5,564 nt of DNA from Bacteroidales bacterium (lineage in GTDB: Bacteria > Bacteroidota > Bacteroidia > Bacteroidales > UBA932), in the NCBI GenBank assembly GCA_017551215.1, contig JAFZMA010000234.1:1-5564 (forward strand). Reading direction: 5' to 3'. Every line of letters starts with the position of its first letter. Positions within the stretch are counted from its first letter, which is position 1. A model generated the notes under the pieces. The model worked only from the letters and a program-made list of their open reading frames with translations, ran no database searches and was not told the DNA's origin. The translations under genes and the position numbers were made by a program. This document shows positions 1 to 3,947 of the stretch, in pieces.

Positions 1-813
1 ATGGAAGCGCTTTCTACTCCGGAAGGCATTGTTAGCGTCATGTCCGGAAACCTGTCTGCCATTTACTTTGCCCAGATGATTGTCCCAGTGGCATTTATCT
101 GGCTGATAGGCAATTCCAAGAGCCAGGATCCTATGGCTTCTCCCGTTAAGGTGGACGCGCCGCATCTGGGCAAGTTCAATATCCTGAGCCTAGGTATCTT
201 GCTCCTCCTGCTGACCTTGGGTCTTAGCTGGACTCTTGATCCAATAACAAGCTATTTCCCAATGCCCGATAACTTTAAGGAGATGTTCGATAGCATAGCC
301 ACAAGGCCTCTGGACACCATAGTTTCCGTTGCCATAATGGCTCCGCTGTTCGAGGAGTTTGTCCTGAGGGGAACCATTGAAAGGGGCCTGCTTTCAAAGG
401 GTTCCGTTGCAGTTGCAATCCTCTGGTCTGCACTGCTTTTCGGAGTAATGCACATGAATCTGTGGCAGGCAATTCCGGCATTTGTTCTAGGCTGTCTGTT
501 CGGCTGGGTTTATTACAGGAGCCACAGCATCTGGGCCGTAATCTTCATGCACTTTGTCAATAACTTTTCGTCCATAGCATTGTTCTGGGCATTCCCGGAT
601 ATGGACGCGGAAGCCACTTCAAGAGAAAACATGATACAGCTTACCGGAACCGATACATGGTACTGGGTACTTGTGGGCGGTGGTGCTGTTGTTGTGATAG
701 TTGGCATCTTCCTGCTCAACAAGTTCCTGCCTAAAAAACCTCAGAGCTTCAAGCCGGCTCCGGTTCTTCTGGCGAATTCCGCAAATGAAAATCACGCCCC
801 TAATCTGCAATAG
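1..813 (+). CDS. CPBP-family intramembrane metalloprotease (Abi/CAAX type), possibly 5'-truncated
   Basis: Integral-membrane protein of the CPBP (CAAX protease and bacteriocin-processing) family, whose members are glutamate/histidine intramembrane proteases; the substrate here is unknown. The family motifs are present in order: EExxxR as E118-E119-R123 (FEEFVLRG), FxxxH as F147-H151 (FGVMHMN), and HxxxN as H184 with N187/N188 (MHFVNNF). Hydrophobic segments lie at about 20-37, 58-79, 136-150, 155-171, 176-195 and 221-241. A hydrophilic Pro/Asn-rich tail follows the last helix. The frame is open at base 1, which is itself an ATG, and the protein seems to enter late in its first membrane segment, so the true start may lie upstream. 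It ends with TAG. The next frame starts 23 bp downstream on the same strand, so the two are probably cotranscribed. Family assignment is secure; the start is not. Confidence 0.87.
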   Translation: MEALSTPEGIVSVMSGNLSAIYFAQMIVPVAFIWLIGNSKSQDPMASPVKVDAPHLGKFNILSLGILLLLLTLGLSWTLDPITSYFPMPDNFKEMFDSIATRPLDTIVSVAIMAPLFEEFVLRGTIERGLLSKGSVAVAILWSALLFGVMHMNLWQAIPAFVLGCLFGWVYYRSHSIWAVIFMHFVNNFSSIALFWAFPDMDAEATSRENMIQLTGTDTWYWVLVGGGAVVVIVGIFLLNKFLPKKPQSFKPAPVLLANSANENHAPNLQ

Positions 814-836: not shown

Positions 837-1316
837 ATGAAAAAGATATACCCTTTGCTGCTGAATAGCGTAACTCCAGAAAGCACTGCCCTCAACGGCT
901 TCCTAAAGGACAACACTCTTGACGACCTCATAGAGACCTATATGGGCAATTTGCTCGGCGACAAGGTATTCACCTTTTTCCAAGGCAACCTGCCTGTTAC
1001 TGTCAAACTCAGCGATACGGCATCTTCAACAGATTCCCCTTCAAAGGAGAGCCTTTCAGATTCATCCCTAAAAAAGAACCCGGAACGCTCATTATCAAAT
1101 GGCAATAGTTGCATACGGGTATCTCCGGATAACGAGACTGCTCTTCCGCGATACGGTTGCTGGGGCAAGGAAAGGATGCTCTACATACTTTCCGCAGAAG
1201 AGGATGCGTCCATCTGGATTGGGTTCAAGAAAAATCTCACAGCCTCAGATATCTACGAAAGATGCCAGAGCGGAACCATACTTGAGGCAATGAACGAGAT
1301 CGGTCCCGAGGAATGA
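837..1316 (+). CDS. N-terminal half of a degenerate class I phosphomannose isomerase (ManA)-like protein
   Basis: 159 codons ending at TGA. The N-terminus (KKIYPL), then NGFLKDNTLDDLIETYMGNL and GDKVFTFF, matches the start of Bacteroidota ManA, which interconverts mannose-6-P and fructose-6-P with Zn. Matches are from memory of the family, not a search. The segment with the usual WGG and ESWEISG motifs appears deleted after residue 9. The QxHP metal motif is RVSPDN here (Q to R94, H to S96), and the Glu of the TEMWY motif is R113 in GKERMLYIL, so this half cannot bind the catalytic metal in the usual way. Residues 61-91 are a Ser-rich insertion absent from the family. The same frame stays open past the TGA into the next entry, which carries the rest of the ManA fold. 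No Shine-Dalgarno sequence is visible before the ATG. A reader could treat 837-2297 as one pseudogene or interrupted gene. Confidence 0.7.
   Translation: MKKIYPLLLNSVTPESTALNGFLKDNTLDDLIETYMGNLLGDKVFTFFQGNLPVTVKLSDTASSTDSPSKESLSDSSLKKNPERSLSNGNSCIRVSPDNETALPRYGCWGKERMLYILSAEEDASIWIGFKKNLTASDIYERCQSGTILEAMNEIGPEE
1314..1316 (+). other. Single in-frame TGA interrupting the ManA-like frame
   Basis: The frame beginning at 837 meets this TGA and then continues without another stop to the TAG at 2295-2297. The residues after it (ETFYIRPGVPFCIGKGV) align one-for-one, without gaps, with the ManA segment that usually reads KGDVFFIPAGRVHAIGKG. The TGA sits exactly at the conserved glycine, so a single GGA-to-TGA change would explain it. 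The context is GAA-TGA-GAA. No frameshift is needed. It could be a real nonsense mutation, a sequencing error, or a site of readthrough or restart. Confidence 0.75.
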
Positions 1317-1373
1317 GAAACATTCTACATCCGGCCAGGCGTTCCTTTCTGCATAGGGAAAGGCGTAAAATAC

Positions 1374-2297
1374 GTGGAAGTCAGCCAGAATTCTCCGGTG
1401 GAATTCAACATAGAGGAACTGGACCAGCTGGTGGAGGCCCTTGATTTCATCCGCCTGGATGCCACCAACCCGGAATATGTGGCGCCGGAAGACTGCCTGT
1501 TCCGCATGGAAAGGGTTGCCATAACAAAGCCGCAGACCATAGCTCCAGACCAGACGGAAAGCTTCATGGTTTTGCTGAATCTGGACAACCAGACATCGCT
1601 GAAAGTAAAAGACCTGCGGGGCTATACGGAAATCTCTGAAGAAACTTGCATTACACTGGACAGCGCTTACCCTGGCAACGCCAGCAACCACTCGAACGAA
1701 AGCCGTACAAACGTTTGCAACTCGAACGGGAGCCGCTCAAACGCTTGCGCCTCGAGCAGGAGCCGCTCAAACGCTTGCAGTTCAAACGCCAACGCCCTTA
1801 ATACCAACCGTTCAAACGCTTGCGACTCGAGCAGGAGCCGCTCAAACGCTTGCAGCTCAAACGCCAACACCCTTAACACCAACCGTTCAAACGCTTGCGA
1901 CTTGAGCGCTAACGCCTTGAATGCCAACGGTTCCCGTTGCCTCGTTCTGATACCGCACGACATACAGGAACTTACAATAGCTCCCGCCCAGGAAGGCGAA
2001 AACCCAACCTCATCCTTCCTCCGCATCTACATGTGCAACATCCCGGAACCGCCAAAACCAGATGAGGAAGAGGAAGACGAATGCGATGATGACAATCACG
2101 AGCATCACTGCGGTTGTGACGCACATCATCACCACCACGATGAGGGTTGCGGATGCCACCACCATGATGATGAGGAAGATGATTGCCACTGCGGCCACCA
2201 CCATGATGATGAGGAAGATGATTGCCACTGCGGCCACCACCTCGATGAGGATTGCGGATGCCACCACGGAGAGGATGGTGGCAGACATCTGTCTTAG
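1374..2297 (+). CDS. C-terminal half of the ManA-like protein with Asn/Ser repeat insertion and His/Cys/Asp-rich tail
   Basis: If translated separately, the first usable start is GTG at 1374; AGGGAAAGG upstream looks like a ribosome site but also encodes the IGKG motif, so it may be fortuitous. The next ATG is at 1506. Residues 1-30 match the ManA stretch around AEIQQTSDTTYRIYDWDR, but the two Arg are lost (N12 and Q18). Residues 41-96 (CLFRMERVAI through TESFMVLLNL and EETCITL) and 189-222 (CLVLIPHDIQELTIAP then FLRIYM) form the C-terminal cupin sheet of ManA. Between them, residues 97-188 are an inserted Asn/Ser/Ala/Cys repeat block. After the normal ManA end, a Pro-rich linker leads to residues 229-307, a tail with 21 His, 11 Cys and many Asp/Glu, including CGC and CHC motifs. 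The tail suggests binding of Zn, Ni or Cu (inference). No signal peptide is seen. It could be a remnant or a repurposed pseudoenzyme. Confidence 0.7.
   Translation: MEVSQNSPVEFNIEELDQLVEALDFIRLDATNPEYVAPEDCLFRMERVAITKPQTIAPDQTESFMVLLNLDNQTSLKVKDLRGYTEISEETCITLDSAYPGNASNHSNESRTNVCNSNGSRSNACASSRSRSNACSSNANALNTNRSNACDSSRSRSNACSSNANTLNTNRSNACDLSANALNANGSRCLVLIPHDIQELTIAPAQEGENPTSSFLRIYMCNIPEPPKPDEEEEDECDDDNHEHHCGCDAHHHHHDEGCGCHHHDDEEDDCHCGHHHDDEEDDCHCGHHLDEDCGCHHGEDGGRHLS
1662..1937 (+). repeat. In-frame 15-bp-period repeat block (RSNAC units) inside the cupin domain
   Basis: The 15-mer CGYTCAAACGCTTGC (Y = C or T; encodes RSNAC) occurs at 1734, 1764, 1809, 1839 and 1884. The spacings are 30, 45, 30 and 45 bp, all multiples of 15. 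A diverged copy (RTNVC) precedes them. On a larger scale, 1751-1825 and 1826-1900 are a 75-bp tandem duplication with 72 of 75 identical bases; two of the three differences are silent and one changes Ala to Thr. The block keeps frame throughout. The ManA strand that normally reads ETVLIPA is split by it. Confidence 0.9.
2156..2233 (+). repeat. Perfect 39-bp tandem duplication in the His/Asp/Cys tail
   Basis: Positions 2156-2194 and 2195-2233 are identical 39-bp units encoding HHHDDEEDDCHCG in frame. A degenerate third copy begins at 2234. Perfect identity suggests recent expansion or active homogenisation. The unit length of 13 codons keeps the frame open. Confidence 0.92.
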
Positions 2298-2387: not shown

Positions 2388-2765
2388 ATGGAAAGCGTTA
2401 GGATAGATAAATACCTTTGGGCCGTCAGAGTGTTCAAGACACGCAGTGAGGCCGCCGAGGCCTGCCGCAGCGGAAAGGTCTATGTAAACGGCGCCCAAGC
2501 CAAATCTGCGAGGGATGTTAAGAAAGGAGACTCCATAGAGGTCAGAAAAGGAGCTGTCCACTACAAATACCTGGTGATTGAGCCCATAGATAAACGCCAG
2601 GGAGCCAAGTTCGTAGACCAGTATGCGGAAAATGTCACCCCGCAAACCGAACTGGAAAAACTCATGGCTCCTAACGAAACGATATTCCTGAAAAGAGAGC
2701 GTGGAAGCGGCCGCCCAACCAAGAAAGAACGCCGCGATATTGACCGCCTGATGGATGGCTTCTAA
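2388..2765 (+). CDS. hslR: HslR (Hsp15)-like S4-domain RNA-binding protein
   Basis: 125-residue basic protein. Residues 4-60 form an S4 RNA-binding domain, recognisable by RIDKYLWAVRVFKTRSEA, then SGKVYVNG and the KGDSIEV strand. The C-terminal region ending RPTKKERRDIDRLM matches the conserved end of the Hsp15/HslR family (COG1188-like). In E. coli, Hsp15 is a heat-shock protein that binds free 50S subunits carrying a nascent chain and helps recycle stalled ribosomes; the same role here is inferred from family. ATG at 2388 gives the usual family length. No clear -7 TAnnTTTG box was found in the 90 bp upstream. It converges on pth; in Bacteroidales the S4, pth and rplY genes are, from memory, often neighbours, which fits, but here the S4 gene faces the other two. 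It ends with TAA. The fold is certain; the precise orthology is likely. Confidence 0.88.
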   Translation: MESVRIDKYLWAVRVFKTRSEAAEACRSGKVYVNGAQAKSARDVKKGDSIEVRKGAVHYKYLVIEPIDKRQGAKFVDQYAENVTPQTELEKLMAPNETIFLKRERGSGRPTKKERRDIDRLMDGF

Positions 2766-3011: not shown

Positions 3012-3947
3012 TTAGTCTCTCTTTTTAAAGAAATCCAGAAGTTTATCTATGAAAGATCTTGAGGAATCAGATTCCTCCTCAGATAAAACTCCTGTTGACG
3101 GGTCCTTGCTCTCAGACTCTTGGGGACCAGGGTTCTGCGTAGCGGAGCGCTCAGGGGCGATATGCTGAGAGTCGGTATGCTGGGATTCGGAGTGCTCAGG
3201 GGCGGTATGCTGGGATTCGGCATGCTGAAAGTCGGTATGCTGGGATTCGGAGTGCTCCGGGGCATAATGCTGTGAGGAGGTATGCTGGGATTCGGAGTGC
3301 TCCGGGGCATAATGCTGTGAGGAGGACTGCAGTGGTTCGGATGCCTTTGGGGCGGATGCCTTTGGCTCGGACTTCTTGGGGTCTGTGTTGCAGATGTTCA
3401 TCGCCCGGTCTGCGCCCATGAAGGTGAAATCCTTGATTCCCTGGGCGGCACGTTTCAGTATATGCGGAAGCTGCTCCTTCTCCTCTCCCTCAATCTTCCC
3501 CAGAACGTAGTCCACCTGACCGCCCTTAGGGAAGCCGTTCCCAATGCCCACCCTTATGCGGCAGTAATCGGATGTTCCGAGCGTCATGTTTATGTGGGCA
3601 AGGCCGTTGTGACCGCCGTCGCTGCCCTTCTTGCGCATACGGACGGTACCGAATGGAAGAGCAAGGTCATCGCAGAGGATTAAAAGATGATCCAGAGATA
3701 TATTCTCTGCCTGCATCCAGTAGTTGACGGCTTTTCCGCTGAGATTCATGTAGGTAGAGGGCTTCAGGAGTATCAGTTTGCTTCCGCGCCAGGATATCTC
3801 CGCGATGCTTCCCAGCCTGTCTGTGCGGAATACTGCGCCGGATTCCTCCGCCAGGTAGTCCACCACCATAAAGCCAATGTTGTGACGGGTACCGGCATAC
3901 TCGGCACCAATGTTTCCAAGACCCGCTATCAGATATTTCCCTGCCAT
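3012..3947 (-). CDS. pth: Peptidyl-tRNA hydrolase with a long repetitive C-terminal extension
   Basis: Cleaves peptidyl-tRNA released from stalled ribosomes, recycling tRNA in the cytoplasm; normally essential. The catalytic domain (residues 1-186) is complete and aligns without offset to E. coli Pth at the key positions: N12 (E. coli N10) in GLGNIG, H22 (E. coli H20) in TRHNIGF, N68 in KPSTYMNLSG, D93 in CDDLALPFG and N114 in GGHNGLAHI. Typical Pth ends near residue 190. Here a further 125 residues follow: a Lys/Ser/Pro linker (187-209), pentapeptides such as SQHYA-PEHSE-SQHTD (210-269), an acidic Ser/Glu stretch, and a terminal amphipathic helix (SFIDKLLDFFKKRD). The function of the tail is unknown; it carries many His and no Cys. 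ATG at 3947 fits the family start; no Shine-Dalgarno sequence is seen. It lies downstream of rplY, separated by a terminator, and has a candidate promoter of its own. Confidence 0.95.
   Translation of the reverse strand: MAGKYLIAGLGNIGAEYAGTRHNIGFMVVDYLAEESGAVFRTDRLGSIAEISWRGSKLILLKPSTYMNLSGKAVNYWMQAENISLDHLLILCDDLALPFGTVRMRKKGSDGGHNGLAHINMTLGTSDYCRIRVGIGNGFPKGGQVDYVLGKIEGEEKEQLPHILKRAAQGIKDFTFMGADRAMNICNTDPKKSEPKASAPKASEPLQSSSQHYAPEHSESQHTSSQHYAPEHSESQHTDFQHAESQHTAPEHSESQHTDSQHIAPERSATQNPGPQESESKDPSTGVLSEEESDSSRSFIDKLLDFFKKRD
3141..3320 (-). repeat. Pentapeptide-period (15-bp) repeats encoding the Pth tail
   Basis: Residues 210-269 split cleanly into twelve pentads of the type [S/P/F]-[Q/E]-H-x-x, with the twelfth degenerate (PERSA). 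At the DNA level, 3240-3284 and 3285-3329 form a 45-bp tandem pair identical over the first 41 bases; further, more diverged copies lie at 3150-3239. All indels are multiples of 15 bp, so the frame is kept. Confidence 0.9.

Follow-up and report, generated by a model that had tools for sequence, protein, structure and literature searches.

We analyzed a stretch of 5,564 nucleotides from a Bacteroidales bacterium (contig JAFZMA010000234.1 of assembly GCA_017551215.1; hereafter, the window). It contains a gene whose product resembles class I phosphomannose isomerase (ManA), between genes for a CPBP protease and an S4-domain protein (Table 1). This gene is probably a ManA that was retired in a group of Bacteroidales, some of them rumen-derived, and found a second life without catalysis.

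Table 1. Features of the ManA-like gene and its neighbors in the window.
Feature	Positions	Strand	Remark
ManA-like core, first part: residues 1-159, covering the N-terminal region and some of the first cupin	837..1313	+	
In-frame TGA	1314..1316	+	near-identical relatives lack it; other genes of related genomes stop at TGA
ManA-like core, second part	1317..1661	+	
R94, in place of metal-ligand Gln	1116..1118	+	
S96, in place of first metal-ligand His	1122..1124	+	Ser in 20/22 main-clade rows
K111, kept Lys of GKTE	1167..1169	+	22/22 main-clade rows; 28/29 dead database relatives
R113, in place of metal-ligand Glu	1173..1175	+	Arg in 20/22 main-clade rows
F171, in place of second metal-ligand His	1347..1349	+	Phe in 20/22 main-clade rows
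Tandem-repeat insert (Ser/Asn/Ala/Cys) inside second cupin	1662..1937	+	
Second cupin, last part	1938..2048	+	
Acidic C-terminal tail, His/Cys-rich	2049..2294	+	21 His and 11 Cys in 82 residues
CPBP (Rce1-like) intramembrane protease, 5' end cut	1..813	+	upstream neighbor of dead and live tailed ManA alike
S4-domain protein, Hsp15-like	2388..2765	+	NF007673 55 bits, cut-off of 148 not reached; usual downstream neighbor

The window protein has the double-cupin fold of ManA, which by our computation spans about 250 residues. (It scores 20.7 bits against TIGR00218, below the curated cut-off of 116.2, and a Pfam search of this protein gave no match.) In the class I enzyme, zinc is bound by Gln98, His100, Glu118, and His175, and Gln98, Lys116, and Glu118 are catalytically important, according to the excerpted text of PMC4718643. 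In the window, the four ligands are replaced by R94, S96, R113, and F171, and the counterpart of the lysine is retained as K111. We compared 22 rows from the main clade of such "dead" copies, and 8 early-branching rows that are dead or half-dead, to 53 live ManAs. The live set comprises 7 enzymes with a His/Cys-rich tail, 17 second copies of ManA (the partial copies L086, L090, and L112 were excluded), and 29 ManAs from the order, and 43 columns are at least 95% identical within it. None of the ligands is kept in any of the 22 main-clade rows; the early-branching rows keep the glutamine in 3 of 8 cases, the first histidine in 4, the second histidine in 2, and the glutamate in none. The replacements recur: in the main clade, the first histidine became serine, the glutamate arginine, and the second histidine phenylalanine (each in 20 of 22 rows), with the lysine kept in all 22. 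In the early branches, the glutamate became lysine (5/8) or phenylalanine (3/8). Furthermore, 24 columns are fixed in the main clade (at least 90%) yet rare among the live ManAs (at most 10%). The dead copies have also lost the N-terminal segment and the substrate arginines. Many framework positions persist: 95% or more of the main-clade rows retain G80, P92, P110, G123, G142, F143, Q197, S199, F278, and P310 (in L014 numbering), a level that F13, F91, and G286 do not reach. Overall, these are homologs of an enzyme that lack its catalytic residues, except for one residue named as catalytic, the lysine.

The original prediction, which was made from the window alone, was that this is a ManA-like core with a retained cupin fold and no remaining active-site residues. 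Alignment to live ManAs confirms the four replaced ligands; the fold is there; and both arginines that were reported as missing are indeed gone, along with the N-terminal segment. The observation is therefore confirmed, with the lysine kept as K111.

A protein search found 32 relatives (P0001-P0032). The first 29 keep none of the four ligands, and P0030 and P0032 keep all four. P0031 is a very divergent ManA-like protein that lacks a tail and has Arg, His, Lys, and His where the ligands would be; it is perhaps an independent loss of activity. (The record of P0022 is apparently broken or fused.) Among the dead relatives, the five that have names are "hypothetical proteins" from metagenome-assembled genomes (four from Bacteroidales and one from Candidatus Egerieousia), and a rumen or omasum sample is named for three of the six titled loci.

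We also surveyed 39 genomes from the genus-level group of G002, whose assemblies may be incomplete. Of these, 29 carry a copy that is dead or half-dead, and seven (G306, G308, G311, G313, G315, G316, and G332) carry a live tailed ManA with all eleven scored active-site positions intact. The half-dead copies form a graded series among living species: G317 keeps Gln and both histidines, G310 and G307 keep Gln and the first histidine, G322 keeps the first histidine only, and G304 the second. In the other three genomes (G301, G309, and G330), no ManA-like gene was found, and this absence is not interpretable: the contig of G309 ends inside the Hsp15-like gene, and in G301 and G330 the Hsp15-like gene was not found either. 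In an order-wide search, 278 of 295 genomes matched, and the 30 loci inspected were mostly ordinary ManAs.

How are the dead copies related to the live enzymes? We built a tree from 93 rows after masking the ten scored active-site columns (midpoint root; the bootstraps are not fully settled). A single clade of 43 rows (support 100/99) unites the dead copies with the live tailed ManAs, and inside it lies the dead branch of 35 rows, including P0031, on a stem of 0.38 (100/99). (P0031 and L078 are on long branches, so their placement is unsure.) The second ManAs group separately, in a clade of 20 rows (100/98) that is placed among other ManAs of the Bacteroidales. Gene order agrees. The CPBP gene is upstream of 29/29 dead copies (in G327, spread over two contigs) and of 7/7 live tailed ManAs. 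The Hsp15-like gene is next downstream of 27/29 dead copies (on the opposite strand in G327 and G329) and 7/7 live tailed ManAs. Neither neighbor was found at any of the 14 second-copy loci that were compared (a set that leaves aside six others, L007-L012). By both tree and synteny, the dead gene is the positional ortholog of the live tailed class I ManA.

At this locus, G307 and G310 (L076 and L107) have the Hsp15-like gene beyond the upstream genes instead of downstream of the half-eroded copy. Also, a nucleotidyltransferase-like gene (named by eye; L002 3115-4020) lies upstream of the CPBP gene beside both dead and live tailed ManAs, and it may once have been part of the old sugar pathway.

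Most of the genomes with a dead copy have another candidate isomerase. A second ManA is present in 20 of these 29 genomes; all 20 keep the Gln, the first His, and the Glu, and 19 keep the second His (L090 is unread there). A single gain probably accounts for the second ManA. Seven of the remaining nine genomes (G302, G304, G312, G314, G318, G328, and G333) have a type II gene (PF01050), which turns up in three of the branches within the dead clade. All nine full type II open reading frames that we opened contain the stretch Q-x-H-x-H-R-x-E-V-W; a second match in G312 gave no such open reading frame. (G006 has both a second ManA and a type II gene, and G301 and G330 have a type II gene with no ManA-like gene found.) Neither replacement was found in any of the seven genomes with a live tailed ManA. 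The co-occurrence of a dead copy with a replacement gives a Fisher's p of 4.3e-6, computed from related genomes that are not independent. Because the dead copy occupies the locus that the live tailed ManA has in sister genomes, it is the other isomerase that looks like the newcomer.

We then examined the tail. In the window, the histidine codons of the last 82 residues are 15 CAC and 6 CAT, and 10 of the 11 cysteine codons are TGC. In a structural model of an ortholog, residues 289-317 have a predicted local distance difference test (pLDDT) score under 50, which suggests that the C-terminal tail is disordered, and disordered, His/Cys-rich tails are of the kind found in SlyD and UreE. At least nine His plus Cys are present in the last 90 residues of 23 of the 29 dead copies from the genus and of 27 of the 29 dead database relatives. 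All seven live ManAs at the locus have a tail as well. Among the best 120 of 7404 matches to a live tailed ManA were 119 further proteins, all of which keep Gln, His, Glu, and His (they are nearest to a live enzyme, so they were expected to be live), and 56 of these have a tail with at least eight His plus Cys. A live, His/Cys-tailed ManA also occurs in G132, which is outside the 39 genomes, with the same CPBP and Hsp15-like neighbors (L015 1384-2481). Finally, the half-eroded L075 has the linker and end motifs that are common to live tails. Because tails are found in live relatives and in G132, and because L075 and the live tails have motifs in common, the sequences indicate that the tail is most likely older than the loss of the active site. 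A caveat is that the root of the tree is only the midpoint, and independent gains of tails are an alternative.

A genome-wide quirk of composition is not supported as an explanation for the tail: the motif C-x-C-G-H-H occurs at 18 sites in the 39 genomes, 15 of them at the ManA-like locus, as compared to one site for the reversed control. At two of the three sites elsewhere (L116 and L117; the third is L118), the motif is not in the reading frame of the gene that holds it (by eye, a glycosyltransferase and a RecQ-like gene).

The second cupin of the window protein also has a repeat insert of 92 residues, built of 30- and 75-base units. Among the aligned rows, it is long only in the window and in P0001-P0003, while some others have shorter inserts; its copy number and length differ even among the near-identical P0001-P0003. 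Repeat growth affects one other gene of the window, for peptidyl-tRNA hydrolase (3012-3947), whose product is extended at its C terminus by a long series of tandem repeats (SQHYAPEHSE-like, 3161-3371). The extension in L002 has a sequence unlike that of the window. No Rfam family matched anywhere in the window.

The dead family is under purifying selection. We estimated the ratio of nonsynonymous to synonymous substitution rates (dN/dS) by NG86 on core codons of near-neighbor pairs, which were hand-picked and partly overlap, and several of the dS values are near saturation. The ratio is 0.036-0.127 for dead copies (14 pairs), 0.118 for half-dead copies (one pair), 0.071-0.088 for live tailed ManAs (three of four pairs usable), and 0.051-0.131 for second ManAs (six of seven usable). 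The 14 pairs of dead copies include the window against L049 and L050, which gives 0.097 with the stop skipped. The constraint on the dead family is about equal to that on the live enzymes, and a gene of this kind is conserved in 29 of the 39 genomes. In the genus, 28 of 29 copies are a single open frame of 291-474 residues; the other, in G327, is cut by the contig end.

The TGA of the window copy is not shared. P0001-P0003 are near-identical to the window protein and uninterrupted, and P0001 and P0002 are 100% identical to it over residues 1-270 if the TGA is read through. The TGA may be a recent, real dead allele or a sequence error. We reject a recoded glycine, because the near-identical proteins are uninterrupted there and TGA is a stop in related genes: it ends 20 of 84 ManA-like open reading frames from the genus and the order, as well as 4 of the 36 conserved neighbor genes in L001-L006. 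(In the window, none of the four other genes whose ends are present stops at TGA, so the window alone could not have settled this.)

These results also bear on how the original prediction accounted for the gene, as either decay of a duplicated manA or repurposing as a non-catalytic protein, with new His/Cys-rich material. This account is partly supported. Repurposing is favored, as orthologs share the loss, keep the fold, and have low dN/dS, and decay is disfavored at the level of the family. The proposed check of orthologs and their dN/dS had the outcome that the window copy is not isolated in its loss of ligands and that its orthologs are under purifying selection. Two points change: the dead copy sits where sister genomes have a live tailed ManA, so that it does not look like the newer of the two isomerases, and the His/Cys-rich material is probably not new, since live ManAs have it too.

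We propose the following account, to which we give an even chance of being right. The ancestor would have been a class I ManA with a disordered tail of histidine, cysteine, and acidic residues. Another isomerase (the tailless second ManA, or the type II gene in three sublineages) would have taken over the mannose-6-phosphate isomerase step. The tailed copy would then have lost its zinc site stepwise: the pattern among living species suggests that the ligand Glu, the N-terminal segment, and the two arginines went first, and the ligand Gln and both ligand histidines later, with isomerization of mannose-6-phosphate presumably lost on the way. The double-cupin fold stayed under purifying selection, and we predict that the cupin body now serves the tail as a stable carrier. 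By analogy with the tail of SlyD, the tail might bind several ions of the Zn, Ni, or Cu type and act as a cytosolic metal store or buffer, or hand the ions on.

Several observations weigh against this account. The tail is weak or absent in six of the 29 dead copies (G304, G322, G326, G327, G328, and G331); its length varies, and it could consist of neutral repeats. In L045 (1501-2847), it is out of frame near the end, with Ile/Thr runs replacing the His runs, which reflects either a frameshifted repeat or an error of assembly. The frame of the window copy itself is broken. Replacement is not universal either: in G320 and G329, neither a second ManA nor a type II gene was found, perhaps because these assemblies are incomplete. 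Nor does the presence of a type II gene imply isomerase activity, as an E. coli manA mutant was not rescued by CBU0671, a protein of type II (as stated in the excerpted part of PMC3204966). And a pure scaffold does not explain why the lysine that is named as catalytic is kept in all 22 main-clade rows.

A rival explanation is a sensor or regulator, in which the former zinc pocket, with its fixed Arg and Ser and its kept Lys, would have become an anion pocket for a sugar phosphate, the tail would be secondary, and the controlled partner would perhaps be the CPBP protease or the synthesis of cell-surface sugars. The replacement residues are themselves conserved, as are the 24 clade-fixed columns, and a CPBP gene adjoins every dead copy. 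But the CPBP gene adjoins the live enzyme too, so the linkage is uninformative about a new role, and the early branches have different replacements for the glutamate. We consider a sensor possible but doubtful. A combination of the two ideas seems unlikely to us: a protein with two inputs, whose zinc site was swapped for a cationic anion pocket and whose tail takes metal, so that it would sense both sugar phosphate and free metal. If this were true, then a zinc enzyme would have been turned inside out, with the whole path still alive as live, half-eroded, and dead forms, all of them tailed.

The remaining explanations are less probable still. Like other pseudoenzymes with an active paralog, the dead copy could be an inactive subunit that forms a heteromer with the second ManA and so stabilizes or tunes it, and a live paralog is available in 20 of the 29 genomes. 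In the other nine, no other type I ManA was found, perhaps because assemblies are incomplete, but two well-supported clades (G312/G314/G318 and G302/G328/G333) keep the dead copy without one, at low dN/dS (0.036-0.040 in three pairs and 0.085-0.127 in two). This makes a partner role for the second ManA improbable. We give the same low weight to a new enzyme on the ManA scaffold that uses the kept Lys and the new residues, whether or not the tail also holds a metal: the core and the replaced residues are strongly conserved, but no metal site or known catalytic set is visible, and the N-terminal segment and the substrate arginines are gone. Least probable of all is slow decay, with a redundant gene on its way out and the window's TGA as the next step. 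The broken frame, the stepwise loss of ligands, the repeats, and the frameshifted tail would fit, but decay is already hard to hold for the family, given open frames in nearly all genus copies, uninterrupted P0001-P0003, and dN/dS like that of live ManAs (0.051-0.131 in nine usable pairs).

The locus offers a readable series from a metabolic enzyme to a presumably non-catalytic protein, with live, half-eroded, and dead orthologs at one place. The loss goes with a replacement gene, and the candidate reason for retention, the tail, apparently predates the loss, so that the retention of dead enzymes by cells becomes a question that can be tested within one family. There is also a warning for annotation: labels of "hypothetical protein" hide the ManA fold, and a bare ManA label would imply an isomerase where there is probably none. 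Inactive cupins, and pseudoenzymes as a kind, were already known. In the open full-text literature of PMC, we found no ManA pseudoenzyme or His-tailed ManA among the matches listed, and none in which the tail predates the loss and intermediates are still alive; subscription papers are outside this scope.

Compared to class I phosphomannose isomerase (ManA; TIGR00218; PF20511), the dead copy shares the double-cupin fold, framework glycines and prolines, and the lysine of GKTE, but it lacks the zinc ligands, the substrate arginines, and the N-terminal segment, and it has a tail of histidine, cysteine, and acidic residues. The live tailed ManA of sister genomes has the locus, the clade, and the kind of tail in common with it and differs in its intact active site. 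SlyD and UreE have His-rich tails that bind Ni or Zn ions (as described in the excerpted part of PMC7055735). As in the dead copy, the tail is C-terminal to a folded domain (in SlyD, it also contains Cys, Asp, and Glu); in the dead copy, however, the folded part is that of an isomerase that has lost its active site, metal binding by the tail is predicted, and no partner metalloenzyme is known, although no search for nickel or zinc enzymes was made. Seed vicilins and legumins are catalytically inactive cupins (again from a partial text, PMC3765361), and, like the dead copy on our account, they have a bicupin fold without catalysis, which was retained as a store.
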